In this document: one piece after another, positions 521 to 56,506 of the stretch | How the letters are laid out: each line of letters begins with the position of its first letter | How positions within the stretch are numbered: the stretch's first letter is position 1 | From: Anaspis maculata | Lineage: Eukaryota; Arthropoda; Insecta; Coleoptera; Scraptiidae | Length of the DNA: 64,000 nt | Reading direction: 5' to 3' | Assembly: GCA_949128115.1 (NCBI GenBank) | Contig: OX421966.1 | Location: forward strand, 49,783,416 to 49,847,415 | The notes under the pieces: generated by a model | Seen by the model: the letters and a program-made list of their open reading frames with translations, nothing else | What the model was told of the DNA's origin: nothing | The model's database searches: none | Translations under genes and position numbers: made by a program

Positions 521-637
521 TGTGGCAATTGCTCATGTAATTAAGTAAGGTTAGTTATAGTTTCCGGGTACATGTGAATTCAATTTGGCGAGATAAGGCC
601 GAGAGTCGCTTGAAAGAAACCCAACGCTGAATCGAGT

Positions 638-645
638 TATATAAG
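638..645 (+). promoter_or_regulatory. LTR TATA box (TATATAAG)
   Basis: TATATAAG lies about 120 bp inside the LTR and would place transcription start near 668-675. The same box is at 12124-12131 in the 3' LTR. This is by motif and position only. Confidence 0.5.
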
Positions 646-1909
646 CAGGCTGTTAACAACGGGGAGCTATAGAAAAACCCGGCAGAGTCCTTGGGTAATA
701 GAGAAATTGCTTCGTTTTTGGCCGTGGGAAATAATAACTAACTTGTGGACACTGAAATGTTTATTTAAAAGTTTCGAAAATTCGGGGAACGCCCGGATGC
801 GACGCCATAAAACGCCCGCTGGTTTATGATATACTGAAATGCCGCAAAAAGGGCCGAAAAGGACCGCCGCCATATGGCCAGCACCTTGTCGAGTCGAGAA
901 TTTCGCTTACAAGAAAATTAAACGCGGTTAATTACCAGTTTCCAAATTGAAAACTCGTAGATGTGATTGTATGGTGGAAAGAGTAAGTTTACAGATTAGG
1001 GTGCGAAATGAGAGTCAAGTAGACACCAAACAAGAAAGGGTTTCATTCAAGCGATTCTGCCCAGTCCGGCCAGGTTGGATTACACTATTCGGGTAATTTC
1101 TTTATGTTTAGACATAAGCCCGGAAGTTATAAACGTAAGCTAAAATATCTTGATATGTCAGCAGTCAGATGGGAGTGTGGAGGTATCGATAAGATTGTAA
1201 TTATCCAAATTGGTGTGGAAAATGAGACGACTGGCGCCATCTGACGGTGAATGCTATAAGGAGTGCGGCCAGAAGGGCGATATTTGCAAGATCGAACGTG
1301 GTCGACAGAATCCAATACGCGATCGATATCAGGGGGTGGAAAATTTGTGATTGGACGAGACTAGGGTTGGTTAAATCTCATTGGTAGAGGTGAAGGACTT
1401 TCGGAAGTGGAAATGAGAGTGTAGCTCAGGGGATGTGGGCGAGCTCTCGAGGCTTTTTTGCTTGAGCTCTCATCGTGACAAGTTGCATTGAAAAACGTGA
1501 ATCCAAGTCCTCTGGGGATTTAAGATTTTGTTCTGTCAAGGCAGTTTTTGATAAGTACAAGCGTGAAGCTAAAATTTACTAATTTACTCACTGAGTTAAA
1601 TAACAGATTTCAGATCGTTGTTTGCATTTAAAGAATTCAAATTCCAAGTCAATTAAACAGATTAAAGTCAGTTCGGTGGTCGGAAATTTCCACAAAAGTC
1701 AAAAAGGAGTTTCAGTGAAAATTTCGTGGGTTCAGATTGCTAAATTAAATCAGGGTTAATTCGCGTGGTGGGTTTGGTGTAAATTCAATTAGAAAGAGGT
1801 GATATTGTGTGTGTGTTGGAGACAGCACAACAGGCAGCAGGCTTCAAGTCGAAATTCTGAGCATCGGGACCAAGGAATAGGAAAATCGCTGCTACTTCGC
1901 CGGTCGTCA

Positions 1910-1915
1910 AATAAA
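1910..1915 (+). terminator. Candidate LTR polyadenylation signal AATAAA
   Basis: An AATAAA hexamer downstream of the LTR TATA box; a second lies at 3608-3613. The equivalents in the 3' LTR (13396-13401 and 15094-15099) would be the functional ones. Which is used cannot be told from sequence. Confidence 0.3.
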
Positions 1916-2300
1916 GGTTGGTCTCGTTTTCTGCACTAATTGAGGTTTAAAATATTATTAATTACCGGCCGTGGAAACCAATGCTGCTGAAAAATTAAAT
2001 AAGGATTAGAAGTCCACAGAAAATTGTAGCTAAGTGTAATTCGAGGGTACCAGCCGAGAAATTTGGTATTGCCTTCCCGCCAATGGCTCAGCCGGCTCAC
2101 TGCCCCGAACACGTGAAAGTTCATCAAATGAATTAAATGCACCCTGATTGGCCACTAGGCGAGCGCCATTATTGTTCCATCTTGCAACAACAAAAATTAC
2201 TTCCGTCACAGGCTAAAGAATCGGCCGGACACCATCGGCAAGACGAATCTCCAAGCCTCATCATGCGAATGAAATTTCAAGCCTTTTTTCTTTCTCTCGA

Positions 2301-2780
2301 TCAAGCAGACGACCGCAATGGCAAAGAAAATTTACAGTTCAAGTCCACCAAAAGGGCGGCTGCAAATTGCCCACCTTTAAAGACATCACCTATAAACACC
2401 GCCAAAATGCGAAAGTCTCGCGCGAGATTCGATAAACGAAGGGTTGTGATCAGAAAGGGTTCAACATAACTCCGTGGGGGCGCGTCGCGAGAATCCGTTG
2501 GGTCATCGAAGACTTGAGCTGAGGCGCGACGCCCGAAGAGACCAATAGCGAGAGCGTCGTAATTACTTCCCTCCAAATATCTGTTGAAAAATTCTGTCCA
2601 AGGATTGTTATTTTCTGCCACCGGCAACTTCAGCCACGTCGAAATAAAATTATTCAAAGAAAGCCACCGTGATTCTCTTAGCAGTATCGAGGTTTCAGGT
2701 GAACTCGAGCCGTTTTGTGGTGAAAAACCATACCTGCACTTTCCTTCGGCGCCGTTAGCTAGGTGTAGTGTAGGAGACAT
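2301..2780 (-). other. Antisense 159-codon open frame in the 5' LTR
   Basis: An uninterrupted minus-strand frame in a locally GC-richer part of the LTR, repeated intact at 13787-14266. The predicted product has no domain I recognise, no clear signal peptide and no membrane segment. Several other short frames occur on both strands of the LTR, so it may be chance. Its identity in both LTRs reflects LTR homogenisation, not selection. Confidence 0.2.
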
Positions 2781-3962
2781 TTACTGTTGTTTTGAGAGCC
2801 ATTAAAATGGTATTTGAAGTGTGAATCCGGCAGTTATAATGCCATTAGATGATAAAGTTATTGAGATGGGAAAATATCCCATATCTCATTGTTTGAAGGC
2901 ATACGATCAAAGCTGAAGCTGTCGTACAAAGCCAACGAGTGAAAAATTATAATCAAAATTTGACGATTATCAAAGTCAAGTCAAAGCACGGCAAATTGTT
3001 GGTTTCCAGGACAGGTGGTTGATAAGGCGTAGGTGATTTGTAAGCCTGCGTCAAGCGACAGAATTGTGTGATAACATTAGTGTGATTACTGACATGGAAT
3101 TCAGTGTTTATTGTTGTTACTCTGGGCGTCATGTTTTGTAAAACGTCGCTACGTTCCGTATTTCGAGCAGTCAAGTGTTTAATTTGCGTTGCGGTTTAGG
3201 TAGAGTTTCTTCCCCTTTGGTTTAGCTCAAATTTGAATTGTTGTTAAATTTGGATAGGGTTTTCTTTCAGGTATCATGGCAACGTCCTCCGTGTTATTTC
3301 AATAAGTTAGGTCGTTTACAATAGGGATTTAATCTGCGGGTAGGCAGAGCTGTACCAACTGTAGCAAGTCCCTAAAATCACAGCACAAGACCATCCTGGT
3401 GGGTTTTCCGTGGTTTCCCCACCAGGTCAATAGGCGAATGCCATGGTTACATTTTCCACGAGGAGGTCAGTATGACTCCGATTACGCTAATTAATTAGAG
3501 GACTGTGATTTGATTTAAAATAGGATATTTAAAGAAATCTCCCACTGACTAGGGTAGGATTAAGGACCTGTGTATCAATTGTCTTCTCTCTATTATGACT
3601 TTGTTGTAATAAACAGGATTGTGGTTGACTTTCGTGTTATATCTCTCTGTTTAGTACCTGTTCTCTTGTGTCACTTATCAATGAAAGAACAAGCGGTTAT
3701 GAATTAATTTGACAACGTAGGGAAAAGTGGAATGGGACTCTATCAGCGGAGCTTCTCGTACTGTCACTTTCTTTGACAGAGCCAGTGAAAGGGTTAGTGA
3801 AAGAAAAGGGGTGGATCTATTAGCGGAGTCCACCTCAGTGTTTGTGAATCTACTGTAAGAGGCCAGACAGCAGTTAAGTATGGTTTACACTTTTGTTAGA
3901 CGATCACGCCGGAATATCAACTGACGGGTTAGGAGAAAGGGGTTGTACCGTTACAGATAAAA

Positions 3963-3981
3963 TGGTGCCGTGACCAGGATT
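3963..3981 (+). promoter_or_regulatory. Primer-binding site, tRNA-His type
   Basis: TGGTGCCGTGACCAGGATT begins 7 nt after the LTR end. It is complementary to the CCA-terminated 3' end of an insect tRNA-His as I recall that sequence: acceptor strand ending GTCACGGCA, preceded by the T-arm. TGG at the start and the position are diagnostic of a minus-strand primer site. Confidence 0.85.
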
Positions 3982-5799
3982 GATAAGTAATAGCATGCAA
4001 GAGATAGGGGGGTGAACAAGAGAGAGATAATACGAAAGGGTAAAGAGTAGAAGGGTTAAATTAGATGGGAAGAACGAAAGATACATAAGACAAGACGGTG
4101 TTGTGAAAGTAAAACTTGGACACAATGCCAGAATTGTTGGTGGAAATGCATACGAAATCGAAGCGTAGAAGGTAAACAAAGGAATGGCATACTTTGGAAA
4201 ATTGAAAGAAACGGCGCCAAAATGTATAAGGCGGAATCGTCAACAATGACTGGTGATGAGCTATTAGATGCAAAGATAATTAGGTCAAAACGAATATAAT
4301 TAATGACAGTGCGACGAGTCAATTGTTTGCGCTCTGCAATAAAGTTGAATTTATACAGGCCACCTATTGTGGCTAAGAAGCCAAACCCTCAGCGTAGCAT
4401 CTATTTTGAATAATTTCTGGTTCGTGAGTTAGGAAAAGGGGTGAGAAGATGGGATCAATCCATATTTCGTCCAAACTTATGGAGCAAAACCTTCTTTGTT
4501 TCGTTTCTCGTTTTATTTTGTTGTGATCACATTCGGGTTTATTTATTTATATAATGCTAAGCGCGTGAATGGTGCTTATTTAAATTTCATTTAAACCTGA
4601 CTCTTGTTAAGAGGATGTGTAATTCTGCTAAACAATTAATTAAGTGATTGAATTAAATTGAAAATATTATCAAGTCAAATTTGCTGAAAGAGTAATTCTA
4701 GCTTTCACAACACTGGTCGAGTGTATGTAGTTGATAGAGAGAGACAAATTGAAACAACAGGAGATAGGGTTAGCTGAGATCGCGACGGGTAGGTCATGCG
4801 AACGAGCCCTGCGGATGTATTATTTATAGATGAGGAGTTTACTTCAATGGAGACAGTAGTACCTATAAGGTGATAACTGTCGAAGGCCGCAGAAGGGGTT
4901 ACGCCAGCCGAGGTGAGTGGCCACTTGAGTGGTGCACGAGGTGAGAAATTCACAGGTGGTGTACGAGCAAACCCAAGGCCACCGTAACAGAAATATTAAT
5001 TGAGCTAGTGGACTAATGAAGTGTGATTAGATAGTGTAAAAGTTGAGTAGAGGAGTCAGAATATGTAGAAAATTACAGCGCCTAGGTGGAATGCAGCAGC
5101 GAGTTGTACGAGGCATGATGAGGACCATCCTGTATGGGGTAATGAGTAATGAGTAGTGGATAGCTAATATTCCAGCTGGTGCGACCAAGAGGAGGTGCGG
5201 AGCTGAGCTCGCCGACACTGCGAAAGATTAGAGTGGTTATTGTGGGGGTGACGATCTACAGGCAATGCAGCGTCCATGCGGTCGGACCATAGGCCACCGA
5301 GCAATATGATGTGTGTTAGTTGAATTGCCGGAGTAGCGTAGACCTTTGCAATTGATTACGAGTTGCGGGAAATTTCTAGCGCCGCTACTTGGACTCAAAA
5401 GGAGTGAGAGCCTTTGGACCGGACCAGGAGTAACGGAATCGAGAGCAGGGCTGTCGGCCACGTAGTGCCTGTTAGTAGAATTATTGCGTTTTAGCTTGAA
5501 GGTTAGCAGCCAGCCAAGATGGACTGCCACTCGGACTTCAGTGAGCGCGAGCGGACTCTGAATGAATTAGACAAGCTAGTGGGTGTGTCTACTAATCGAG
5601 TGGTAGAGTGACTGAAATTATAGCGAGCTACCGGACATCGCTATGATTAATGAAATTGCTAGAATAACAATAGTGTAGTTAGTCTCTAGGGCCAATACAC
5701 AGGTGATATATGCGTATCTGTAGAGGCCATGCACGTCCACGCGATCGAATCTGCATATTCTAAAGTCGGTCCTAATTTATCCAAAGGGATCGACCTAAA
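3982..5799 (+). other. Long untranslated leader of the retrotransposon
   Basis: About 1.8 kb between the primer site and the gag start without a sustained sense frame. It presumably carries packaging and dimerisation signals, and the many short upstream ATGs suggest non-canonical translation initiation. Small minus-strand frames here (for example 3904-4322, 4705-4953, 5237-5530) look like chance. Confidence 0.6.
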
Positions 5800-7128
5800 A
5801 TGGCTGGAGGTAGAAAAGGGACTCGGGCTACCGCACGACAGGAAACTGTGCGTCCGGTGGCGCGCAATCGAACTGCTGCCGAAGAGACTCGCGTGGAGGA
5901 ACCGATTATTCCGAGATGGTTCTTCGAGTATCAGGAAATCCAGGACCGGCGTCAGGAGGAATTGGATCGGAGGGCTGCAGAGCGAGAGGAGCGTCTGACG
6001 AATATGATGCTGAGAACGATGGAGACGGTGGCGTCCGCCGTTGGGAATGGAAGAGTGGCTGCGACCTTGGCTATCGGCGAGGCTACCGACGCGGCGACGG
6101 GTGCCAGTCGGAGCACCCCATCGGCGTCAACTACCGAAGAGCCAGGAGCTGGGGCTGAGCCCAACGAGCTGAGTCCGCAAGACTTGGGGGGACAGCTGAA
6201 AGCGCTGATTGAGCAGGCAGCACCGCTGCCAGCCAGACCAGTGTTTGAGAGCACGGACGGGCCGAATAACCCGATGATGTTCCTGGAGCAGGTGGATAGC
6301 TATGCGGAAGGGGCACAGCTCGACGACCGGAAGAAGAGGAAATTTGTGGTGGAGTGTCTACGAGGAAAGGCCAAGCGCTGGGCGGCGGTCCACATGGCTG
6401 AGTGGCAGGACTATGCTGAGTTTCGACGGCGCTTCCTGCACTTTTTCTGGTCGGAGGACCAACAGGCAGGAGTGCTCCGACAACTTCAAGATGGCAGGTT
6501 TGACGTGGAGGGACGATTCTCCATGTCAGATCATTTTAACTATCATCTGGGTCGAGCAAAGATGCTGACAGAGCCACCGATTGAGAGTAAACTCGTGAAG
6601 ATGATTATCAGGCACTATCCTTGCGATATCCAGCGGTTTTGGAAAAGCAAGGGGTGCAAGAACATTCGGCAGACGAGTGCCTTCCTCGAGGACATGGAGG
6701 ATGAAGCCACAAATAAGCCGAGCACCCGCCTGCAGAAAGAACGGAACGCCGGACCCAAAGAGCGGCGAGCGGATACGTGGCGGCGGAGAGATAATCGTCG
6801 AGATGATCGCCGAGACGACCGCAGATTCGGGCAACAACCCTACGTGCGACATCAGCAGCGAGAGGGCCCCCGAGCTATCGAGGCGCCTCCTTCAGTGCCC
6901 CAAATTACTTTCCCCGACACGCCAGCGCCAGCACCAGCGCCGCGATTTGAACCAGCTCGACCGTTTGAGCGTCGCGGGAATAACGATACGCGACCGCGTC
7001 CGTGGCAACAGCGTCCGAACCAACCACAGGCCGGGTGGAGTCGGTGGCAGCAACCGAATACGCGTCGCGACGCTCCGGCGACACAGACATCGGGAAACGG
7101 ACCGAGGGCGGAGAACAAGCGCCGCTGA
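5800..7128 (+). CDS. gag: Gag polyprotein of Ty3/gypsy element
   Basis: A 442-residue structural protein that would form the virus-like particle. The start ATG has a favourable context (AAAATGG). Residues about 140-300 look like a retrotransposon Gag capsid domain: MMFLEQ near 153, then KAKRWA and a WQDYAEFRRRF helix typical of this family. The N-terminal third is Glu/Arg-rich with a probable helical region (residues 40-75), followed by an Ala/Thr/Ser linker. The C-terminal 130 residues are Arg-, Asp-, Pro- and Gln-rich. No CCHC zinc knuckle is visible, so nucleic-acid binding probably depends on the basic tail. The stop overlaps the pol frame, and the slippery site lies about nine codons before it. 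Confidence 0.9.
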   Translation: MAGGRKGTRATARQETVRPVARNRTAAEETRVEEPIIPRWFFEYQEIQDRRQEELDRRAAEREERLTNMMLRTMETVASAVGNGRVAATLAIGEATDAATGASRSTPSASTTEEPGAGAEPNELSPQDLGGQLKALIEQAAPLPARPVFESTDGPNNPMMFLEQVDSYAEGAQLDDRKKRKFVVECLRGKAKRWAAVHMAEWQDYAEFRRRFLHFFWSEDQQAGVLRQLQDGRFDVEGRFSMSDHFNYHLGRAKMLTEPPIESKLVKMIIRHYPCDIQRFWKSKGCKNIRQTSAFLEDMEDEATNKPSTRLQKERNAGPKERRADTWRRRDNRRDDRRDDRRFGQQPYVRHQQREGPRAIEAPPSVPQITFPDTPAPAPAPRFEPARPFERRGNNDTRPRPWQQRPNQPQAGWSRWQQPNTRRDAPATQTSGNGPRAENKRR

Positions 7129-8417
7129 TCTCTGCCCATCTAATCGGACCGGAGGCCTGCGCATCGCCCAGCACCGCGGCGTCCGCGACCAGCATCGCGA
7201 CGCCCGCGACCAGCCCCGCGACGTCCGCGACCAGCCCCGCGACCAGCACCGCGACGTCCGCGACCAGCACCGCGACGCCCGCGACCAGCACTGCGACGCC
7301 CGCGAACAACACCGCGACGTCCGCGACCAGCACCGCGACGCCCGCGAACAACACCGCGACGTCCGCGACCAGCACCGCGACGTCCGCGACCAGCACCGCG
7401 ACGCCCGCGACCAGCACTGCGACGCCCGCGAACAACACCGCGACGCCCGCGACCAGCACCGCGACGTCCGCTGACAGCACCGCTACGCCCGCGACCAGCA
7501 CTACGACGGCCTGGGACGTTGGCCGGCGGCAACGCGGAACTCGCGTGCGAGCTACTGAAGAACAGGCGCGAAAGCCCGCCACTACGACGGTACCACGCTC
7601 AGTTACTTCGGCTGCGGCAACAACACTTGCAGCACCGACAACCAACGCGACAAATTCAACGTTATCCGCCACAGCAGGGATATCAGCGCCCACAACGATA
7701 GCCCAGTCTGCGTCTGTCACTGTTGCGACCTCAGTTCCGGTAGTAGCCGACCGAGTGGCCGAGAACATAGTAGTGCTGAAAGGGGATATGTTCAAAGCCG
7801 ATAGTGAATTTGCCTTTGTCCACTGCTGTTCACGCGACTTGAAGATGTCTAGAGGAATAGCCGCGGAAATCAAACGGCGTTTCCAAGGAGAGGAAGAGCT
7901 CCGGCGCCAGCAGAAGAAAGTGGGACAGGTGGCGCAGCTGTATAGTGCTGGGCGCACGATCCTGTACCTGATTACCAAGGAGCGGGCGTGGGGAAAGCCC
8001 ACCTATGAATCACTCTGGGAATGTCTGGGGACGCTCAAACATGAATGTGAGGAGGCCGGAATCTTCAAACTGGCGATGCCCAAGATCAGCTGTGGCCTCG
8101 ATAGACACAACTGGTCGATTGTGAGGGACTACATTAGAGAAAAGTTCCAAGGCACACGCTTCGTGATCCAAATCTACGACTATACGATGGAGCCGGAAGC
8201 GAGGTGTGACCAGTTACACGGGAGTAACAAGTCTTCTGATCGTCGGGTGAACATGCCCATGGAGGAGAAGGTCTCCCTGTCTGGGACCATTCCCAAGAGA
8301 AGGCATCCGTATAGCCCGCCACGTGCACACAAAAGGGCGAGAACCTCGCCTGCAATAACCGCGGCACTGCGAGTTACGGGAGGAGTGCACAGTGCCCCCT
8401 CACACGCGTCAATAACC

Positions 8418-8481
<64 letters not shown>

Positions 8482-11400
8482 AGATGTCGGCGGCGAGAAC
8501 TACAACTCCGACACTGACCACAACAGTAGCCAACAACTCAGCAAATGATGTTGAGAATACCTGCCTGACCTACGACACGGAGATTACCGAGGAAGGTCTC
8601 ACTTACCGCATACTTTCGCTGCATCGTGGCCTACAAGATGCGGTGGAGGATCATAATGTCCGCCCACACCGAGTGACACCAGAGATAGTATGTGTCGTGG
8701 AGGGAATCACCACAACCGCTCTCGTCGACACTGGAAGCGAGGTGAGCTGTATCTCCGAAGATTTGTGGGAAACGATTCTGGCGGCTGAACGCCGACCTCC
8801 TACGCTCCCTGTGACTGCGATTCAACTCCAAGGGGCCGTAGGGCAAAAGAGCTGCCGCGTAGTGCTACAAAGTGACCTGGAGGTGACACTTGGTGGGCGG
8901 AACTATCAAGTGGCCTGCCTGGTTGTGAAGAGTCTGATTAAACCGGTGATTCTGGGTGCTGATTGGCTACTACAGGTAGCAGGAATTGTGGACCTTGGTC
9001 GACGAATTATTACGTTGAAACAAGGGGGAGTCCAATCGGAGGTGGAGTTTAAACCAGGACATCAAGTCTGTGAAGATGATGCCCAACATGAGTACAACAC
9101 TATATGCCACCTGCAAACGACAGCGAAGCCATCGAAATCGCGTCCGATACTTACTGTGCAACAAGAGCTGGTGAATAAAGTGGACCAGCTGAGCTGTCCA
9201 CCTACCCAGAAAGCCGACCTGTTGAGAGTCCTTCGGCAGTACGAGAGCATCTTCAGAGAAGAGCCTGGCATGACCCATCTCTATGAGCACCGGATTGAAT
9301 TATATGATGAGACGCCGTTTATACAGCGACCATACCCGGTGCCATTTGCCTTGAGGCCGGCCGTTGAGGAAACCATCAGCGAGATGCTTCGCCTAGGCGT
9401 TATTCGAAGGGAAGCATCTGCATTTGCTAGCCCGATGACGGTAACGAAGAAAAAGGATGGGACCGTGCGTATCTGCCTGGATGCACGAGGAATTAATGCT
9501 AAGATGGTAGCGGATTCGGAGACACCGCCGAGCCCTGAGGAACTTCTGAGATACTTCCGAAATGTACGAGTGATGTCGACTATTGACCTACGGGCGTCGT
9601 ATTGGCAAATACCACTACATCCGGAAAGTCGCAAGTACACCGCATTTCTCTATAATGGACGCTCGTACACCTATACGCGACTGCCATTTGGACTTAAGAC
9701 TTCCACGGGGAGTTTCAGCCGAGCCATGGACATTGTGCTCGGACCTGAAGTAAGGGAATTCGCCGTCAACTATATCGACGATTTATTGGTTGCCTCTGGA
9801 ACGTGGGAAGAGCACTTGGATCACTTGGGACAAGTGTTAGAGAAGCTGAAGCTGGCCAGGATGACCGTGAACTTGGAGAAGTCCTCCTTTGTTCAAACGG
9901 AAGTGAAATTTCTCGGTCATGTACTGACGACAACGGGGATTCGAGCTGATCCGGAAAAGGTCATGGCCATTCGCAAATTTCCAGTACCACAGAAAACGAA
10001 GCATCTGCGGGCGTTTCTTGGATTGTGCAACTACTACAGAAAGTTCTCCGTGCACTATAGCGAAGCCACCAGGTCGCTAACACATCTGCTGCGTAAGGAT
10101 ACTACCTGGAGATGGGGCCCGCGAGAGCAGATGGCCTTCGACCATATCAAGGATCTGTTTCTTGACACCGTGCTGCTGGAGCACCCGGACAGTCGTCGAA
10201 CCTTTTACGTCCAAACTGACAGCTCGGGCTATGGACTGGGAGCAGAGCTGTATCAGTTACATGAAGATGGTGACCGGGGGGTGATTGCTTTTGCGAGTCG
10301 CTCATTGCGAGGAGCGGAGCTCAACTATACGACTACTGAGAAGGAGCTGTTGGGGGTGATCTTCGCCCTCGACAAGTTCCGAATGTACATCCAGGGGGCC
10401 CAGATAATTGTTCGCACCGATCACCAGGCACTGAAGTTCCTGGGCCGGTGCCGACTGCTGAACGAGAGACTGACCAGGTGGACCTTGTTCCTGAGCCAGT
10501 TCAATTATGCCATTGAACACGTCAAGGGAAGGGAGAATGTGATACCGGATACACTGTCACGATTCCCGATGGACGGGGACGGTACTGCCGAGTATCCACG
10601 TGACCAACCGGTAATTGCGCTCTTTGAGGTCGAAGAGTCTCCCGAAGTTATCGCGATCCTACGAGACCTCAAGGTGCAACAACAAGAAGATGAGTACTTG
10701 GGGGCGATCTGGGAGCACCAACGCGCTCCGGACGCTCCCTGCGAGCCAGCAATACAGCGAGTGAGCAGTCGATATTCTGTGCATAGTAATGTTTTGGTTT
10801 ACCGAGCTGCTAATGATGATCGAGCCCGCCTTGCTATACCGGGGCGATGCACCGACCGGCTCACTTGGTACCATCATCAGCTCCTGGGACATTTTGGGGC
10901 CACCAAAGTCCACCAGGCTATGAAGCAGGTGTACTATTGGCCTGACATGTCACGCTCTATCCGCCGGGTCATACGATCCTGTGACCTGTGCCAGAAGACG
11001 AAACATCCAAATCGTCATACCCAGGGACCAATGACACCCATCATTGCCAAGGGCATGGGTGATCTCGTCTGCGTGGATTTCTACGGACCCCTGCCTGCCA
11101 GCAAGGGGTTCCAATACATCTTTGTGGTTATCGACGCCTTCTCCAAGTTCCTCAAGCTGTATCCCTTGAGAACTGCGACATCCAAAGCTGCCGTCAAGAA
11201 GCTGCTTCAAGACTACGTCAACTACATCAAGCCGAAGTGTGTGCTGAGCGACCATGGCACACAATTCACTTCCCGGAATTGGCAAACCCAACTCAAGGCT
11301 GCCAATATCTTACCCACAATGAGTTCGGTTCGCCATCCTGCGAGCAACCCCAGCGAACGCGTAATGAGAGAATTAGGCCGTATCTTCCGAGCCTACTGCC

Positions 11401-11897
11401 AGGGCGAGCATCACCGCTGGGCAATCCAACTGCCCAAAATTGAGGAGTGCCTCAATCACGTCCCGCATGAGAGTACGGGGTACTCCCCGTATCATATACT
11501 CTACGGTCGAGAGCCTCCAACGCCTCTGGATGCTCTCACGACCAAGCTGCTGCCCAGGAGAAAAGCAGAGACCGTAGAGGAGATACGCCGAAACGTGTTG
11601 CAGAACCTACGCCATCATGCCGAATTGAGATGCAAGCACCAGAAGGGCATTACGATGAAGCTCCGTGTCGGTGACTGGGTACTACTGCGTACAAATCCGA
11701 GCTCTGCTACCGCCTCAGGAACTTATGCCAAGTTCCTGCCGCTCTACACCGGTCCGTACGTGGTTCTGGAGATACCACATAACAACACGTATGCCATTGC
11801 TGACGTGTCCACACAAGAGCGCAAGGGCGTCTACAACATGACGAACCTGAGACTCTACTACCGCCGAGAAGCTCCGGGGGTCGTCACCACCCCGTGA
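7002..11897 (+). CDS. pol: Pol polyprotein: macro domain, protease, RT, RNase H, integrase
   Basis: Open for 1631 codons; probably expressed as Gag-Pol after the -1 shift at 7092-7098, so the first pol codon used is 7098. Positions below count from 7002. An Ala/Thr/Ser-rich repeat linker covers about 60-170, and a TARG1-like macro domain 255-397. A poly-Thr stretch near 475-495 leads to the retropepsin, with ALVDTGSE (active Asp 576) and ILGADW. The reverse transcriptase covers about 777-970 (YIDD 924-927). RNase H begins near YVQTDSSGYG (Asp 1073). The integrase has an HHCC zinc finger from ~1291 and a catalytic core with Asp 1359, Asp 1417 and Glu 1452, a D-D-35-E spacing. A GPY/F-like module (YTGPYVV) follows; there is no chromodomain. 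All catalytic motifs are intact. Confidence 0.95.
7092..7098 (+). promoter_or_regulatory. -1 ribosomal frameshift heptamer GGGAAAC
   Basis: G GGA AAC fits X XXY YYZ exactly in the gag frame (GGA at 7093-7095, AAC at 7096-7098). Slipping back one base enters the pol frame at 7098, which is open for 1600 codons. GC-rich sequence after it (7107-7125) can form a short GGCG/CGCC stem. The heptamer matches the form used by some lentiviruses. Confidence 0.75.
7180..7505 (+). repeat. GC-rich coding minisatellite (21-bp unit) in pol
   Basis: Repeats of about 21 bp (GCGACGTCCGCGACCAGCAC and variants) encode an Ala-Thr-Ser/Pro linker between the frameshift site and the macro domain. The repeat makes several frames open on the other strand; those are by-products. 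Confidence 0.9.
7764..8190 (+). other. TARG1/OARD1-type macro domain inside pol
   Basis: Residues 255-397 of pol read as a complete macro domain of the OARD1 (C6orf130/TARG1) class, which binds ADP-ribose and removes it from modified proteins. Visible landmarks are VVLKGDMF at the start, MSRGIAAEIKRRF (the glycine-containing loop and helix), QQKKVGQVA, LYLITKERAWGKPTYESL and ISCGLDRHNW. The TARG1 catalytic residues have counterparts in Lys 326 (codon 7977-7979) and Asp 367 (codon 8100-8102), 41 residues apart. This is the same spacing as I recall between Lys84 and Asp125 of the human enzyme. The ligand Asp 262 (codon 7785-7787) lies 64 before the Lys, again as in the human protein. Low-complexity linkers flank it on both sides. 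Activity is inferred; domain identity is strong. Confidence 0.88.
8416..8480 (+). repeat. (ACA)n microsatellite encoding poly-Thr in pol
   Basis: About 21 ACA triplets in frame produce a threonine tract between macro domain and protease. It is likely a flexible, length-variable linker. Confidence 0.95.
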
Positions 11898-11996
11898 GGA
11901 AGCACCTGGTGTGCTGTGAATCGAGTACATCCCTCCAGCACCTATCAAGGGACGCGAGATGACTTTCCTGTACTCATGCTGTGTAGCAGCAAAGCC

Positions 11997-12002
11997 AGGG
12001 GG
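11997..12002 (+). promoter_or_regulatory. Weak candidate polypurine tract
   Basis: AGGGGG ends four bases before the 3' LTR (TGTA between). It is the only purine run there and is shorter than usual. Confidence 0.3.
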
Positions 12003-12006
12003 TGTA

Positions 12007-15000
12007 TGTGGCAATTGCTCATGTAATTAAGTAAGGTTAGTTATAGTTTCCGGGTACATGTGAATTCAATTTGGCGAGATAAGGCCGAGAGTCGCTTGAA
12101 AGAAACCCAACGCTGAATCGAGTTATATAAGCAGGCTGTTAACAACGGGGAGCTATAGAAAAACCCGGCAGAGTCCTTGGGTAATAAAGAAATTGCTTCG
12201 TTTTTGGCCGTGGGAAATAATAACTAACTTGTGGACACTGAAATGTTTATTTAAAAGTTTCGAAAATTCGGGGAACGCCCGGATGCGACGCCATAAAACG
12301 CCCGCTGGTTTATGATATACTGAAATGCCGCAAAAAGGGCCGAAAAGGACCGCCGCCATATGGCCAGCACCTTGTCGAGTCGAGAATTTCGCTTACAAGA
12401 AAATTAAACGCGGTTAATTACCAGTTTCCAAATTGAAAACTCGTAGATGTGATTGTATGGTGGAAAGAGTAAGTTTACAGATTAGGGTGCGAAATGAGAG
12501 TCAAGTAGACACCAAACAAGAAAGGGTTTCATTCAAGCGATTCTGCCCAGTCCGGCCAGGTTGGATTACACTATTCGGGTAATTTCTTTATGTTTAGACA
12601 TAAGCCCGGAAGTTATAAACGTAAGCTAAAATATCTTGATATGTCAGCAGTCAGATGGGAGTGTGGAGGTATCGATAAGATTGTAATTATCCAAATTGGT
12701 GTGGAAAATGAGACGACTGGCGCCATCTGACGGTGAATGCTATAAGGAGTGCGGCCAGAAGGGCGATATTTGCAAGATCGAACGTGGTCGACAGAATCCA
12801 ATACGCGATCGATATCAGGGGGTGGAAAATTTGTGATTGGACGAGACTAGGGTTGGTTAAATCTCATTGGTAGAGGTGAAGGACTTTCGGAAGTGGAAAT
12901 GAGAGTGTAGCTCAGGGGATGTGGGCGAGCTCTCGAGGCTTTTTTGCTTGAGCTCTCATCGTGACAAGTTGCATTGAAAAACGTGAATCCAAGTCCTCTG
13001 GGGATTTAAGATTTTGTTCTGTCAAGGCAGTTTTTGATAAGTACAAGCGTGAAGCTAAAATTTACTAATTTACTCACTGAGTTAAATAACAGATTTCAGA
13101 TCGTTGTTTGCATTTAAAGAATTCAAATTCCAAGTCAATTAAACAGATTAAAGTCAGTTCGGTGGTCGGAAATTTCCACAAAAGTCAAAAAGGAGTTTCA
13201 GTGAAAATTTCGTGGGTTCAGATTGCTAAATTAAATCAGGGTTAATTCGCGTGGTGGGTTTGGTGTAAATTCAATTAGAAAGAGGTGATATTGTGTGTGT
13301 GTTGGAGACAGCACAACAGGCAGCAGGCTTCAAGTCGAAATTCTGAGCATCGGGACCAAGGAATAGGAAAATCGCTGCTACTTCGCCGGTCGTCAAATAA
13401 AGGTTGGTCTCGTTTTCTGCACTAATTGAGGTTTAAAATATTATTAATTACCGGCCGTGGAAACCAATGCTGCTGAAAAATTAAATAAGGATTAGAAGTC
13501 CACAGAAAATTGTAGCTAAGTGTAATTCGAGGGTACCAGCCGAGAAATTTGGTATTGCCTTCCCGCCAATGGCTCAGCCGGCTCACTGCCCCGAACACGT
13601 GAAAGTTCATCAAATGAATTAAATGCACCCTGATTGGCCACTAGGCGAGCGCCATTATTGTTCCATCTTGCAACAACAAAAATTACTTCCGTCACAGGCT
13701 AAAGAATCGGCCGGACACCATCGGCAAGACGAATCTCCAAGCCTCATCATGCGAATGAAATTTCAAGCCTTTTTTCTTTCTCTCGATCAAGCAGACGACC
13801 GCAATGGCAAAGAAAATTTACAGTTCAAGTCCACCAAAAGGGCGGCTGCAAATTGCCCACCTTTAAAGACATCACCTATAAACACCGCCAAAATGCGAAA
13901 GTCTCGCGCGAGATTCGATAAACGAAGGGTTGTGATCAGAAAGGGTTCAACATAACTCCGTGGGGGCGCGTCGCGAGAATCCGTTGGGTCATCGAAGACT
14001 TGAGCTGAGGCGCGACGCCCGAAGAGACCAATAGCGAGAGCGTCGTAATTACTTCCCTCCAAATATCTGTTGAAAAATTCTGTCCAAGGATTGTTATTTT
14101 CTGCCACCGGCAACTTCAGCCACGTCGAAATAAAATTATTCAAAGAAAGCCACCGTGATTCTCTTAGCAGTATCGAGGTTTCAGGTGAGCTCGAGCCGTT
14201 TTGTGGTGAAAAACCATACCTGCACTTTCCTTCGGCGCCGTTAGCTAGGTGTAGTGTAGGAGACATTTACTGTTGTTTTGAGAGCCATTAAAATGGTATT
14301 TGAAGTGTGAATCCGGCAGTTATAATGCCATTAGATGATAAAGTTATTGAGATGGGAAAATATCCCATATCTCATTGTTTGAAGGCATACGATCAAAGCT
14401 GAAGCTGTCGTACAAAGCCAACGAGTGAAAAATTATAATCAAAATTTGACGATTATCAAAGTCAAGTCAAAGCACGGCAAATTGTTGGTTTCCAGGACAG
14501 GTGGTTGATAAGGCGTAGGTGATTTGTAAGCCTGCGTCAAGCGACAGAATTGTGTGATAACATTAGTGTGATTACTGACATGGAATTCAGTGTTTATTGT
14601 TGTTACTCTGGGCGTCATGTTTTGTAAAACGTCGCTACGTTCCGTATTTCGAGCAGTCAAGTGTTTAATTTGCGTTGCGGTTTAGGTAGAGTTTCTTCCC
14701 CTTTGGTTTAGCTCAAATTTGAATTGTTGTTAAATTTGGATAGGGTTTTCTTTCAGGTATCATGGCAACGTCCTCCGTGTTATTTCAATAAGTTAGGTCG
14801 TTTACAATAGGGATTTAATCTGCGGGTAGGCAGAGCTGTACCAACTGTAGCAAGTCCCTAAAATCACAGCACAAGACCATCCTGGTGGGTTTTCCGTGGT
14901 TTCCCCACCAGGTCAATAGGCGAATGCCATGGTTACATTTTCCACGAGGAGGTCAGTATGACTCCGATTACGCTAATTAATTAGAGGACTGTGATTTGAT

Positions 15001-15438
15001 TTAAAATAGGATATTTAAAGAAATCTCCCACTGACTAGGGTAGGATTAAGGACCTGTGTATCAATTGTCTTCTCTCTATTATGACTTTGTTGTAATAAAC
15101 AGGATTGTGGTTGACTTTCGTGTTATATCTCTCTGTTTAGTACCTGTTCTCTTGTGTCACTTATCAATGAAAGAACAAGCGGTTATGAATTAATTTGACA
15201 ACGTAGGGAAAAGTGGAATGGGACTCTATCAGCGGAGCTTCTCGTACTGTCACTTTCTTTGACAGAGCCAGTGAAAGGGTTAGTGAAAGAAAAGGGGTGG
15301 ATCTATTAGCGGAGTCCACCTCAGTGTTTGTGAATCTACTGTAAGAGGCCAGACAGCAGTTAAGTATGGTTTACACTTTTGTTAGACGATCACGCCGGAA
15401 TATCAACTGACGGGTTAGGAGAAAGGGGTTGTACCGTT

Positions 15439-15441
<3 letters not shown>
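12007..15441 (+). repeat. 3' long terminal repeat (3435 bp)
   Basis: Same length as, and nearly identical to, 521-3955. It is followed immediately by (AT)19. The TATA box copy is at 12124-12131. Confidence 0.95.
13787..14266 (-). other. Antisense 159-codon open frame in the 3' LTR
   Basis: LTR duplicate of the frame at 2301-2780. It is included only because it is the longest open frame in the LTR. No recognisable domain. Confidence 0.2.
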
Positions 15442-15481: not shown

Positions 15482-18400
15482 TGATGGATGATGTATTTCG
15501 GGCTCGCGGCATATTTTGTGACAAACAATGTAAAAAAAAATATTTTCTACACAGATTCACATTGTTGGACGTCTCATGACATTTTAGGACGTAATTTTCA
15601 GGTAATCCCATCGCCAATGTTGGTTTTCAAATATATATATTTGAATTATATTTCTAAATGTACATGATGTATTTTGAGCTCCCGGCATAATTTGAAAAGA
15701 AAATGCATTTGTTCACGTATTTATATTATTTGTCACCTTCCAATGTACTTCCTTTTGAGATTTGTCGTCTGGATTATTCCACTCTACATTTTTTCTCGAA
15801 AATGTTTCGAGAGACTGATTTACGTCATACACGGTCATGATCAAAAAGTTCATAATGTATTTCGGACTCACATGGGCTCATCGAGAATGTGAATTGGGCT
15901 CTATACAACAATTTGCGAAATTACGCCCATTGTTTATGAATTTATGTTCTCAGATGTCTCTTAACCTCATAGAACGTGATTCTCAAGTTAATTTGTTACG
16001 ATTTGACTGTTAAAGCACTCGTATCATTTATATTTCGGGTGAACAACTACGAAAATTGTCGAAAAAACGAGTTCCTGTCGTAAAGTGCACAGTAGCTTTT
16101 ATTTCGAGTTTGGGACGTTTCCATTTTTCTATAGTTGAATAACTTCAAATTTCTCGGTTAATCAGGTCCTACGTCACCATTTCTACAATGTGCGCGTCCG
16201 TTCTTGTCCATACTGTCTTTTCAAAAAAATCTCCGGGAGCCCAAACTACGTCATACACGAGCACGACCAAAACGTTCAGAACGTATTTTGGGCTCACATG
16301 TTCATAAAAAATGTGAAATGGGCTCGCGACAGCTTTCAATCCAATTCAAATTCCTCTCCTTATTACATTCTTTCTTTTGTACATGAATAACAATTTGATC
16401 AATTCTTATTTTGTTAGATGCCTCCCAACAAATACCACTTTCTTGATGCTGCCATCCGAGTTTTTCTACCTCATTTTCGCCCACAATTTCTTCGGGAGCC
16501 CGGTGAACGTCATGCACGGGCATAATAGAAGAATTTATGATGTATTTTGGGCTCACATGGGCTTATCAAGAATGTGAATGAGCGCTCCACAATATTTTTT
16601 AACGCTGAGTTCTCCCTGTAAAGTGCACAATAGGTTCGATTTCGAAGTTGGGATGTTTTCAGTAATCCATTCTTGAATAATTTTGAGTTTCTGGGTCGAA
16701 CAGGTCTCACGTTGCTATTTCTAAAATGTTATGTACCGTTTTTGTCCACTTTTGACTTATTTCCACAAAATCCTTCGGGAGCCCAATCCACATTAAGCAC
16801 GAACATGATTGAAAAGTTCAAGACGTATTTCGGGCTCACATGCTTATCCAAAATGTGGAATGAGCTCTCTACATATTTTGTACATAAATGCCATTTCTTT
16901 GATAATTATTTTGTTAGATGGTCCTCAACAAATACTACATTCTTGAAGTTACCATCCAGGTTTTTCCACCTCATTTCTGCCAAAGAAAAATTTTGGGAGC
17001 CTTGATTACGTCATGCGCGGGATGGATGAAAGAATTCATGATGTATTTCGGGCTCACATGGACTCATCGAGAATGTGAATTGAGCTCTTTGCAATATTTT
17101 ATGGAAAAATGACATTTATTTACATAATTTGTATCCAAACACCTCTCAATTTCCTTTGACGTGATTTGCAACTTATTTTGTCACATTTTCAAAATTTATC
17201 ATAGATTCGTTTTGAACAGCTGCAAAAATTTTAGAAAAAATAGGTTCCCGTTGCAAAGTACAGAATAGGTTTTATTTCAAGTTTTAGATGTTTTCAGAAA
17301 TCCATTCTTGAATAATTTTGAGTTTTTGGGTCAGAGAGGTCTCACTGTGCCATTTCTGCAATGATATAGTCCGTTTCTGGCCACTTTTGACTTTCTTCCA
17401 CGAAAACCCTCGAGAGTCCAATCTACATTCTGCACGAACACGATTGAAAAGTTCAAGACGTATTTTGGACTCTCATGCTAATCCAAAATGTGGAATGGGC
17501 TCTTGACATATTTTGTACGTGAATGTAATTTTTTGATTTATTATTCTGTCAGATGCTTCCCAACAAATATTACATTTTTGAAGGACTATCCGGGTTTTTC
17601 CACCTCATTTCTGCCCAAAAAAATTCGGGAGCCCTGATTACATATTGCGCGAGCTGGATGAAAGAGTTCATGATGTATTTCAGGCTCACATGGACTCATC
17701 GAGAATGTGAATTGAGCTCTCTACAATGTTTTGTGGAAAAATGCCATTTGTTTACATAATTTGTTTTCAAACACCTCTCAATCTTCTATAACGTGATAAG
17801 CAACTTATTTCGTCACAGTCTCAAAATTTATCATAGATGTGTTTTGAACAGCTGCAAAAATTGTAGAAAAAATAGGTTCCCAGTTGTAAAGTGCAAAATA
17901 GGGTTTATTTCAAGTTTTGATTGTTTTCAGAAATCCATTTTTGAATAATTTTGAGTTTTGGTGTCAAACAGGTCTCACGGTGCTATTTCTGTAATGATAT
18001 AGTCGTTTTCTGGCCACTCTTGACTTTTTTTCACAAAAACCTTCGGGAGCCCAATTTACGTTATACACGAGCACTATTGAAGTGTTCAAGACCTATTTCG
18101 GGCTCACATGATCATCCAAAATATGAAATGGGCTCTCGACATATTTTGCACATAACTGTCATTCTGGTAAATTATTATTGTGTTAGACGCCTACCAACAA
18201 ATACTACTTTCGTGATGTTGTCATTCCGGTTTTTCAACTTATTCTCCGCCCAAAAATTTTTCGGGAGCCTGAATAACGTCATGCACAGGCTCGACAAAAA
18301 AATTCATGATGTATTTTGGGCTCACATGGACTCACCGAGAATGTAAATTTGGCTCTCTATGATATTTTGTGAAAAAATGCCATTTGTTTATAACTATTTG

Positions 18401-40200: not shown

Positions 40201-40297
40201 AAACTAAATGGAAATCGCAATCGGCAATCAGGAGATATTGGCATCCAAAGCCGAACCATTTTTCCGATACCGACAACTTTGTTGTCCAGCAGTTTAT
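37251..40297. repeat. 3-kb fold-back element with asymmetric arms
   Basis: The left end (AAACTGCTGGACAACGAAGT from 37254) recurs inverted at 39936-39955 and again at 40277-40296. The core is symmetric about 38487: 37795-38040 and 38934-39179 are inverted copies. The right arm has an extra tandem copy of the ~345-bp terminal unit (39609-39955 and 39956-40297) and extra sequence near 39280-39590. Arms are moderately diverged. A further partial copy of the terminal unit lies at 63629-64000. Confidence 0.85.
39609..40297. repeat. Tandem duplication of fold-back terminal unit
   Basis: Two direct copies of about 345 bp, each containing GGGGGTACGATGAAGTCGT and ending in CCGACAACTT..TTGTCCAGCAGTTTA. 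Divergence is around 15 percent by eye. Confidence 0.85.
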
Positions 40298-49149: not shown

Positions 49150-49683
49150 CTAACTTGTGTAGTAATAATCAATCAGCTGTAATGCGGCGCCGTTGGACCA
49201 TCCGAACCCGGACTGGACGGTGTACTCGCCGCCGGTGCCGTACTCTCCCGGGTTCACCGCGTCGTACTTTTCGAACATCTCGTTGAACTTGGTGTACCCC
49301 TTCTGGTTGGCTTGCACCCACCTCTGCGCGAACTCCTTGGCCAGCTCTTTGGCGTCCGGATCGCCCGTGCGTTCCAGGCCGAAGATGACGATCATCTGGA
49401 GGGGCGCCCAGGCGTTGGGGAAGTCCCACTGTTCGCCGTTGTGGAAGATCGAGGTCGGTATGCCGCCTTGGTAGTCGAGGATGCCTTGCGATCTGAGATA
49501 GGCCGCGGCACGCTTGCCCAAGACTTCGGCTTCGGCGGGGTCGTACGATTCGGTCCACAGCGGCGCGAAGTTGCTCGGGTAGAAATACTTGCGCGGCTGT
49601 TGCAGGTCATAGTTGAAGTCGTACCAGATGCCGTCCGTTTCGTCGTAGAAGACTTGGTGGATGGTTTTTTCCCATAGGCTGGC
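49150..49683 (-). CDS. Treh: Trehalase, second coding exon (C-terminal part)
   Basis: Residues 380-556 of a glycoside-hydrolase family 37 trehalase, which splits trehalose into two glucose units. The exon starts after the acceptor GTCCAAAG and continues in phase 0 from exon 1. It holds trehalase signature 2 (QWDFPNAWAP, residues 464-473), the catalytic base Glu 517 in MFEKYD, and a glycine motif EYGTGGEY where most insect enzymes have GGGGEY. The protein ends YYYTS with no membrane segment or GPI signal, so it is the soluble secreted form (Tre-1 type). The stop is TAG at 49152-49150. The exon is markedly more GC-rich than the flanks. Confidence 0.95.
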   Translation of the reverse strand, partial: ASLWEKTIHQVFYDETDGIWYDFNYDLQQPRKYFYPSNFAPLWTESYDPAEAEVLGKRAAAYLRSQGILDYQGGIPTSIFHNGEQWDFPNAWAPLQMIVIFGLERTGDPDAKELAKEFAQRWVQANQKGYTKFNEMFEKYDAVNPGEYGTGGEYTVQSGFGWSNGAALQLIDYYYTS

Positions 49684-50260
49684 CTTTGGACAAAAATATT
49701 TTTTTCAACAGGTGGCATTTTGTCTCAGCAGGATATTATTAGAATTGACTTATTGGTCAGATTTAGATACGTGAGCGTGGTGGAGGTGGAAGTTGAAAAA
49801 GTAGGAATGGGAGCATCTTTCACATCGGAATATACTTGCCTAGATATTGCAAATTTGAGTACAGACTTTATACAAGAAAACTAATTTGATGCTCATTACT
49901 CGGCACAAATCAGATAATGATATCAGTGCCAAAGAAGTAGGTAACTACCTATTTAAATCATGGATGAGAACATTTTATTGCTGTTACAAATTGAAACCTT
50001 CTATATAATTGAATCTACGTACACTGGAGGCTGAGATAAAGATTTGGAAACGCGAATGTGATCGTGATCTCCAGAAACTAAACTGGTACTGGTATGAAAC
50101 TTTATATATCTTGCAGGGTACAGAGTGTCTCAAAAAAAGTTTCAAATTTTTTTGGCATCCTGTATTTAAATATTGGAAATGATGCGGTTTATTTTTTTGA
50201 GTCCGAATAATATTATTTGATATTTGAGTATGGTCATTTTCAAAGCTCCTACCCCAGAAT

Positions 50261-54468: not shown

Positions 54469-55350
54469 AAGAGGCCAATAGATTAATGTTATATCCATCA
54501 ACCAGTGAAGGTGTCCTATCGCATTCAAATTCTGATTAAGGCGATTTCAACACTCTTAGGCGCTCCATCCTCGATTAATATGAAGAGGAGCACAAAGGAT
54601 GGAATCCTGATATTGGATACATCGAGGGATACATATTGAGCATGCGGTTCACAAGGCGGGAGAAGTGACTTAATTCAAATCAGTGAATTAAATTGAGATA
54701 TAATAAGTTGCCTGCCCATCCAGGGACTAACGCCAATAACTGGATAAATTTCAGTGTAAAAAAATACTCCGCTGCAAAGCTGGAATCGGAAACTGCTTTT
54801 ATAGATAGTGTGGTTTCATCTGACTGGCCGATGTCGAAAGATTGGGATGGCGTATATTTAAATGTTGACTCAATGCTTGAATCCGAAAATTGACAAGTTC
54901 ATGACAGGTGTTTCCCAACTTTTGGCCGCCACCATGAAATGAGTTCAATTGGCCTACACGAGGGAAATAAAACATATAAGTCCAGCATTTTTTTGCGGTG
55001 AGTGGGTATCCGTGTAGTCACTGGCAGTTCCTCCTTAGCGCCGCCTCAGTACTCTGAAAGCGGCGCCGGGTGATTTACACACCACCCACCATTCTATGGA
55101 CGCATCAACAGCGAGGTTATCAACACCCTTTCTTCTGTGTCCTTCTCGTTTCACCCTTTTCTCCTTAATATGACTGCACGGCAGTACACCCCAAGGTACT
55201 AGAGAGCGCATGATAATTTCCACCTGGACCGAGCCGGATTCGAAGCCACTATCTTTGGAATTGCTTCCAAAGACGGAGTCCCCGAGTTATCTAGTTCTCT
55301 CCCCTACAATTATGATGATCATTTTAAACTGAACCGTCTGAATTTCTCAC
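54469..55350. other. Unassigned intronic sequence next to exon 1
   Basis: No recognised element. Short frames (54693-54893 plus, 55035-55223 minus) have no known domain. Confidence 0.4.
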
Positions 55351-56487
55351 CTTTTCCGACCAGAAAATGGCCTTTTCGTAATTGTTGATCTGTACGTAAA
55401 ACTGAGACAGAATCCTGAAGTCCGCGCACAGGAACGAGTTCAGGTCCGCCGGAATAATCTTGCGGGTCTTCACGTGGGAAATGTTGGCCGAATTTCCACC
55501 CCGATCGTCCACGATCCAGCGCGACGAAAAGTCCCATCCGCTTTCGGCTCCGCTCTTCAAGTTGGCCCACAGGGTCTTCTTATCCTTGTCGGCCGCAAAA
55601 AACTCGGCGGTTTCCACGTCTTCTCTGTACGACTCGGGCCTGGGAGACCCGCTCTCGGAGTCGTAATGCGCCACGGTGTACGTCACGCCGTTCTTTTCTA
55701 CATCGATGGTTTTCTTGTCGAGCCAGTACTGCAATTCTTTGTCTATCAGCTCGATGTTAGCTTCGAGGAACTCGGTTGAGTTGGTGTAGTCGATGTAGGC
55801 TTTGACCATCATGGTCAGCAGCGGCGGTTGAGATCGGTTCAGGTAATAAACTCTGGCTCCGTTCGGGACGAACCCGTACCTGTCGACCAAAGACAGGAAG
55901 TTCTCCAGCATTCCCTTGACTGTTTCCGGCATTTCGCTCAAGAGCAACCCCTGGACGATCCAGTACGAATCCCAGTAGTAAAACTCGCGGAAGCGTCCGC
56001 CAGGCACGATAAACCCGTTCTTGACCGGGATCAACGAGTACTGGTCTTCGTTTTGGAACACGACATCTTTGACTATCCTGGCGAGCTGGGGCCAGATGTT
56101 GATGAGGTTGGTGGTGAACTCGCGGATCGTTTCGTCCTTGACTCTGGACGGCAGCCTGGGGTTTTGCGGGAAATCCGTCGGGACCCAGTCGTCCAGTTCG
56201 TCTCCGTCGGCGAAGTTTTCGCTGACGAACTTTTTGACTTGTGCCGGGGTGGGGTTGTTGTTGGTAGAGTTCATGAAGGCGTCGAAATTTGCGAGGGTTT
56301 TTTCAGGCGGGTTGAGTTGGCGTTGGTCGACGAAGGTTTTGGAATCGTTGAAGACGCGCGCCAGTTGGATGGTGTCCAAGAGTTGACCTTGGCAGTAGAC
56401 TTTGCTGTCGCATGATGGGAGGTCTTGACAGGTAGTGGCAGCGGTGATGGTCAAGATTGCCAAGGTGGTGAACACGAGACGCAGCAT
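55351..56487 (-). CDS. Treh: Trehalase, first coding exon (N-terminal part)
   Basis: Residues 1-379 of a 556-residue secreted trehalase. A hydrophobic signal peptide covers residues 1-20 (cleavage likely near TTCQD). Signature 1 (PGGRFREFYYWDSY) is at 162-175. The RPESYREDVETAEFFAADK region (284-302) and ESGWDFSSRW (315-324), with catalytic acid Asp 319, follow. Several N-glycosylation sequons are present (for example NDS 47, NST 73, NRS 217, NST 236). The exon ends ...WSEK at a GTGAGA donor and joins exon 2 in phase 0; reading on past the donor reaches a stop after eight codons. The ATG at 56487-56485 is the only start that gives a signal peptide. Length and motifs match insect Tre-1. Confidence 0.95.
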
Positions 56488-56506
56488 GATTCACCTGGAA
56501 AAAATT
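56488..56506 (-). promoter_or_regulatory. Possible 5'-UTR splice acceptor before the trehalase start
   Basis: AAGAATTTTTTCCAG|GTGAATCATG: a pyrimidine-rich run and AG end seven bases before the ATG. It suggests that the first exon(s) and promoter lie further upstream, possibly beyond the adjacent fold-back. Confidence 0.4.

Follow-up and report, generated by a model that had tools for sequence, protein, structure and literature searches.

The locus described here raises the question of what a macro domain, of the kind that removes ADP-ribose, might do inside the Pol polyprotein of an insect retrotransposon. The window (the whole stretch of Anaspis maculata DNA analysed, 64,000 nucleotides) was examined for the element itself, and the domain was then compared with proteins, structures and further copies from the same genome.

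Architecture of the element

Positions 521-15441 of the window are occupied by a single LTR retrotransposon, 14.9 kb long, which lies in a tract of AT repeats. These flank the element on both sides and mask the extent of any target-site duplication. The features of the element, together with two trehalase pieces further along the window, are as follows.

521..3955, + strand: 5' LTR, 3435 bp, TG...CA, direct repeat of 12007-15441
3963..3975, + strand: candidate primer binding site TGGTGCCGTGACC, separated from the LTR end by 7 bases (by-eye reading)
5800..7128, + strand: gag, from the first in-frame ATG to the stop, within the open frame 5776-7128
6984..11897, + strand: uninterrupted pol frame, 1637 codons; presumed entry by frameshift at about 7098
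7092..7098, + strand: -1 slippery heptamer GGGAAAC, in the gag phase
7099..7150, + strand: predicted hairpin directly 3' of the slippery site (ViennaRNA)
7168..7508, + strand: 21-bp tandem repeat, Ala/Thr/Ser-rich linker
7761..8180, + strand: TARG1/OARD1-class macro domain (Pfam, PDB and model comparison)
8410..8481, + strand: (CAA)n, poly-Thr linker
8694..8969, + strand: aspartyl protease (PF13975, E 8e-8)
9447..9923, + strand: reverse transcriptase (PF00078, E 1e-26)
10188..10502, + strand: RNase H (PF17917, E 3.5e-33)
10848..11339, + strand: integrase zinc finger and core (PF17921, E 1.8e-15; PF00665, E 1.6e-14)
11997..12006, + strand: candidate polypurine tract preceding the 3' LTR (by-eye reading)
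12007..15441, + strand: 3' LTR, 3435 bp, TG...CA, with (AT)n right after
49150..49704, minus strand: trehalase piece (Pfam E 6.2e-57, profile positions 335-511)
55324..56490, minus strand: trehalase piece (Pfam E 3.1e-102, profile positions 2-342)

The two LTRs differ by 2 substitutions in total and by no gaps; at 3435 bp they seem to be well above the usual length in gypsy elements of animals. The Ala/Thr/Ser repeat array, the macro domain, the poly-Thr linker, the protease (PR), the reverse transcriptase (RT), the RNase H (RH) and the integrase (IN) follow each other in this order in one frame. The window copy has no env ORF downstream of pol, since the gap between the pol stop at 11897 and the 3' LTR at 12007 is only 109 bases long. 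The gag product gave only below-cut-off matches to Pfam Retrotrans_gag (E 0.016 and E 0.037), and a Pfam search of four ORFs of the LTRs and leader (two of them in the LTRs) returned no match. The RT was 81% identical over 434 columns of the RT tree alignment to that of database protein P0024, and it nested among Tribolium castaneum proteins whose names refer to the transposons 297 and 17.6. The element is a recent, env-less Ty3/gypsy LTR retrotransposon with very long LTRs.

The heptamer GGGAAAC at 7092-7098 is the sole in-phase XXXYYYZ heptamer (Y being A or T, and Z not G) across the gag frame, and it was present in all eight loci of the window family that were inspected, including the window's own locus, L002 (a ninth, L028, was left out of this count). 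The hairpin following it had predicted energies, computed by ViennaRNA without a shuffle control, of -19.7 kcal/mol for 7103-7150 and -25.0 kcal/mol for 7099-7160. The distance from the slippery site to the macro domain varies between copies of the family, and the longest ACA run of the poly-Thr linker comprised 11-21 units among the eight loci. The 21-bp array (7168-7508) and the ACA run (8410-8481) flank the macro domain, and their lengths vary among near-identical copies with the frame intact.

Elsewhere in the window, a diverged tandem array (period about 630 bp) lies directly downstream of the element, at about 15700-23100, and a 344-bp unit occurs in two tandem copies with 83% matches at 39609-40296. 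The two trehalase pieces are presumably exons of one gene or of neighbouring genes.

Identity and catalytic residues of the macro domain

The preliminary description of this DNA had placed a full-length macro domain between the frameshift site and the protease, with catalytic residues spaced as in human TARG1/OARD1, and had suggested a Pfam search of the region as a check. That search gave a significant match of the translation of 7740-8267 to Macro PF01661 (E 5e-6, 26.9 bits, with a curated cut-off of 22), and comparison with human TARG1/OARD1 (PDB 4j5r) gave E 9.6e-34 over 140 residues. At the level of sequence, the macro-domain match is far beyond chance. The ligand Asp (Asp20 in TARG1) is encoded at 7785-7787, the catalytic Lys at 7977-7979 and the catalytic Asp at 8100-8102, so that the predicted domain, the residues and their spacings of 64 and 41 codons, the same as in TARG1, were all confirmed. 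The alphavirus and rubella macro domains, which we take to belong to the MacroD type, were outranked by TARG1 and DarG as matches to the window domain; they, too, are macro folds within a polyprotein, in their case a viral one. Lys80 and Asp121 of the window domain (P0001 numbering) align with the catalytic dyad of human TARG1, Lys84/Asp125 (PMC9411070). The TARG1 motif MGAGIA reads MSRGIA in the window domain. On the basis of the sequence and model comparisons, the domain is a TARG1-class (ALC1-like) macro domain with an intact catalytic dyad.

Macro domains in other Ty3/gypsy elements

Further macro domains accompanied by an RT, for which the preliminary description had proposed searching insect genomes, were found both in the genome of the host and in three database Pol proteins. 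The latter (P0021, P0022 and P0023) were the Pol hits among 126 candidates obtained when long database proteins were searched with the macro region; P0023 is a Harmonia axyridis Pol whose cluster holds 8 sequences. In all three, the macro domain is located between RNase H and integrase and not ahead of the protease.

The host's own genome (758 Mb, 50 contigs) yielded 150 scored macro matches out of 461 candidates. Nine of the 150 had an internal stop, and the open frame reached at least 1000 aa in 87 and at least 500 aa in 137, with fewer than 300 aa in 5. The 68 loci examined (28 with flanks and 40 short; 58 distinct DNA sequences, 51 distinct proteins) were grouped by single linkage at 75% identity into eight families of 26, 12, 11, 9, 4, 4, 1 and 1 loci, which are 34-57% alike between each other. 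Families A (that of the window) and B have the order macro-PR-RT-RH-IN, with the short A loci revealing macro-PR-RT only. Families F, G and H have the order PR-macro-RT; the protease of family F was recognised by eye only, as a DSG motif in L024, and that of family G lies in another frame. Families C, D and E have the order RT-RH-macro-IN. Here, the protease match was weak in family D and none was detected in C; no integrase was detected in the fetched stretch of L026, and the integrase of L017 is 3.7 kb off in another frame. The macro domain is widespread across families and occupies three places in Pol.

In families G and H, a further stretch with weak similarity to a macro domain lies upstream of the intact domain (E 0.026 and 7.6e-4, respectively; L015 4490-4660, and L016 4337-4510 counted on its reverse strand). 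It may reflect a duplication of the domain with later decay of one copy.

Selection on the domain

The catalytic Lys80 was retained in 67 of the 68 loci (L036 has Glu instead) and Asp121 in all 67 readable loci (L066 is cut short there). The ligand Asp16 was variable, with Asp in 41 loci and Asn in 27. Within families, pN/pS of the macro domain was 0.46 (A), 0.26 (B), 0.11 (C), 0.33 (D), 0.22 (E) and 0.22 (F). When each variant was counted once, nonsynonymous variants were below the neutral expectation in five of the six families by a binomial test (D, p 7.7e-5; F, 1.2e-4; C, 5.4e-4; B, 1.3e-3; E, 1.7e-3). The window family A, with 8 nonsynonymous and 4 synonymous variants (n=12), gave p 0.24, i.e. 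no significant constraint. Restricting the test to variants common to at least two copies gave p 0.0073 (D), 0.0042 (E), 0.014 (F) and 0.04 (B); family A had one such variant and C none. The RT of the same families had pN/pS of 0.00-0.14 (small counts), below the 0.11-0.46 of the macro domain, hence the constraint on the latter is weaker.

The loci were chosen by similarity to the macro domain itself, from the 150 of 461 candidates that were scored, and this favours intact copies. Such a bias cannot account for the conservation between families, because in the four family pairs of more than 50% identity the synonymous sites are saturated (pS 0.79-0.87) and pN is 0.28-0.35.

Gain and loss of the domain

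Searching with a profile made for the domain revealed no macro domain among the 120 listed of 902 database RT relatives. P0024, the closest listed RT relative, begins downstream of where the macro domain would sit and is uninformative; P0025, a Tribolium castaneum gag-pol model, lacks the domain. In the host genome, L074, L075 and L076 (RT 89%, 82% and 67% alike) encode gag and PR-RT, and the sequence fetched for them, up to RT, contains no macro domain. L077 and L078, of a distant group, run from PR through integrase with none, so that all five fetched relatives are macro-less in these stretches. Their open pol frames measure 1156-1255 aa, thus they seem to manage without the domain. Relatives without the region, which the preliminary description had named as grounds for refuting its reading, therefore do exist (L074-L076), yet the macro-bearing copies keep the catalytic residues, which indicates that the difference reflects gain or loss and no artefact.

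The RT trees show at least two changes in the presence of the domain in Pol (a single change was found in 0% of 200 bootstrap trees, in three trees), a figure that is not a count of captures from a cellular source. Around the window, the branching of A, B and the macro-less L074 is weak, with one change in 25% of bootstrap trees, and the local history may have been one gain, one gain and one loss, or two gains. In a second RT group, the position of the macro domain shifts between C, F, P0023 and D/E (the tree has starred branches), hence relocation or renewed acquisition is likely. The three Pol positions and the changes on the RT trees speak for repeated recruitment. L016, whose frame is broken, was left out of the RT trees; as for the database relatives, one tree was built with 50 of the 120 listed, another with 33 of the 116 that are full-length, and two smaller trees with 14 and 9. 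Long-branch warnings were given for P0021, G (L015), L076 and P0032.

These results bear on the notion that the domain was captured by chance and is carried unused. The persistence of the macro-less relatives L074-L078 would fit such a passenger, as would the window family, alone without significant constraint, and a constraint weaker than that on RT. However, the dyad is retained between families whose synonymous sites are saturated, constraint is significant in the other five families, and the changes of presence (at least two) and the three positions in Pol also speak against a passenger. We regard this notion as very improbable, and it is already disfavoured.

Origin of the domain

The suggestion of the preliminary description that the element may have captured a host OARD1 gene received no clear support. 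The macro-domain tree supports A+B (100/95), D+E+P0022 (98/96) and G+H (100/98), and the rest is mostly weak; a single clade of all element-borne macro domains was not rejected (p-AU 0.408, and 0.427 on a smaller set). The partial stand-alone proteins P0012, P0014, P0015, P0017 and P0018 were left out of the domain trees. The host's own OARD1 gene did not stand out among the 150 scored matches.

Whatever its function, the domain might derive from a virus-type TARG1-like domain or from swapping between elements, and not from repeated capture of host OARD1; we consider this conceivable, with the odds somewhat against it. It would agree with the p-AU value for a single clade, with the sharing of ORFs among retroelements proposed for rotifers (PMC5408684) and with the match to Kadipiro virus VP8, the best among the viral models (E 1.9e-16, 38% identity, rmsd 7.6 A). 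Against it stand the similarity of 34-48% between representative element domains taken from different places in Pol, which does not exceed that of each to human OARD1 (37-51%), and the mostly weak domain trees.

Kadipiro virus is a seadornavirus, and its VP8 was the best of the viral BFVD models when compared with the window-domain model ma132e5465edc; judging by this model, a reovirus may carry a domain of the TARG1 class. In IMG/VR, a viral contig of 112.7 kb codes for a stretch that shares 53% identity with residues 28-57 of the domain (L001 5001-5090).

Possible function of the domain

Since the dyad is guarded, the simplest reading is that of an eraser delivered with Gag-Pol. The Gag-Pol polyprotein would presumably be produced by -1 frameshifting, and the macro domain would be made and packaged along with the other Pol enzymes. 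After proteolysis, it would be either released or left tethered, and its Lys/Asp dyad would take ADP-ribose off Glu/Asp residues of particle or host proteins or, as an alternative substrate, off phosphate ends of the element RNA or cDNA. While reverse transcription and integration take place, such an eraser would counter PARP-type restriction or marking by the host. That the window Gag-Pol carries, ahead of its protease, a TARG1-class hydrolase that erases ADP-ribose and so undoes host PARP-type restriction or marking is the reading we favour, with a probability of roughly 0.58. The substrates of TARG1 are esters of ADP-ribose with Glu/Asp, O-acyl-ADP-ribose and nucleic acids with ADP-ribose on their phosphate ends (PMC7050489); the same review raises the possibility that ADP-ribosylation of RNA serves to mark RNA of transposons or viruses.

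We infer that the domain may act against PARP-type modification. In Drosophila without PARP-1, five of the eight changed mobile elements were up and three down, and ten more, nine of them of the gypsy superfamily, were up but short of significance at the false-discovery limit (PMC7712786); the effect is possibly indirect according to the authors of that study. In mammals, SIRT6 is described as silencing L1 by mono-ADP-ribosylating KAP1 (PMC4695847). A broader proposal, which we put forward tentatively and rate at somewhat less than even, is that insects ADP-ribosylate retroelement particles, RNA or cDNA as a defence, and that separate lineages of Ty3/gypsy elements have repeatedly built a TARG1-type eraser into Pol, in three places, to counter it.

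Alternatively, the domain could be a reader or tether that binds ADP-ribose or PAR and directs the pre-integration complex towards chromatin that is damaged or rich in PAR, although we find this unlikely. Chromodomains serve as chromatin tethers for chromoviruses. The macro domain precedes the integrase in families C, D and E and in P0021-P0023; moreover, TARG1 interacts with PARP1 and relocates upon DNA damage (PMC7050489). However, the Lys/Asp dyad is nearly invariant although a reader could do without it, and families A, B, F, G and H have the macro domain far from the integrase. A housekeeping role seems less likely still: the domain would clear O-acetyl-ADP-ribose or repair ADP-ribosylated nucleic-acid ends in the particle, with no part in host defence. 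TARG1 does cleave O-acyl-ADP-ribose and ADP-ribose phosphoesters (PMC7050489), and dUTPase is a parallel accessory Pol enzyme (PMC4531489), but there is no evident reason why more such products should arise in these particles than in those of macro-less relatives.

Relation to known systems and implications

A literature search (open-access papers, with the best matches for looser terms) found no report of Ty3/gypsy elements, or of any other LTR retrotransposons, that encode such a domain. The preliminary description's remark that it knew of no such Ty3/gypsy element therefore stands within the scope of this search; among retroelements at large there is a precedent, as fish epsilon-like endogenous retroviruses carry macro-domain ORFs (Basta et al. 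2009, as cited in PMC4977317). Like the window element, these are retroelements that gained a macro domain; as described there, theirs are additional ORFs in a vertebrate host, whereas in the window element the domain is inside Pol. Human TARG1/OARD1/C6orf130 is a cellular protein of the ALC1-like class, in contrast to the window domain, a predicted hydrolase that is part of a retrotransposon Gag-Pol. KnitGypsy-Dnmt3 is also a gypsy Pol with a host-type enzyme, with key residues kept and purifying selection, but the enzyme is a DNA methyltransferase and the host a charophyte alga (PMC5890265). The closest parallel in layout is dUTPase, which adjoins the protease in beta-retroviruses, separates RNase H from integrase in lentiviruses (PMC4531489) and has its place between PR and RT in rotifer elements (PMC5408684); it is a small accessory Pol hydrolase at comparable positions, different from the macro domain in enzyme and fold. 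The capture of enzymes by LTR elements is thus already known, and what seems new is the repeated, differently placed and dyad-conserved macro domains in Ty3/gypsy Pol.

For annotation, insect 'OARD1-like' gene models may be pieces of retrotransposons. Macro-bearing and macro-less elements in one genome, with three positions and near-invariant catalytic residues, provide a natural and countable system. Insects are not known to have the interferon-linked PARP defences found in vertebrates. Activity of the domain, if confirmed, would point to ADP-ribosylation as a restriction on insect LTR retroelements, and the broader proposal given above, if true, would amount to an unrecognised ADP-ribosylation arms race that can be read from the elements themselves.
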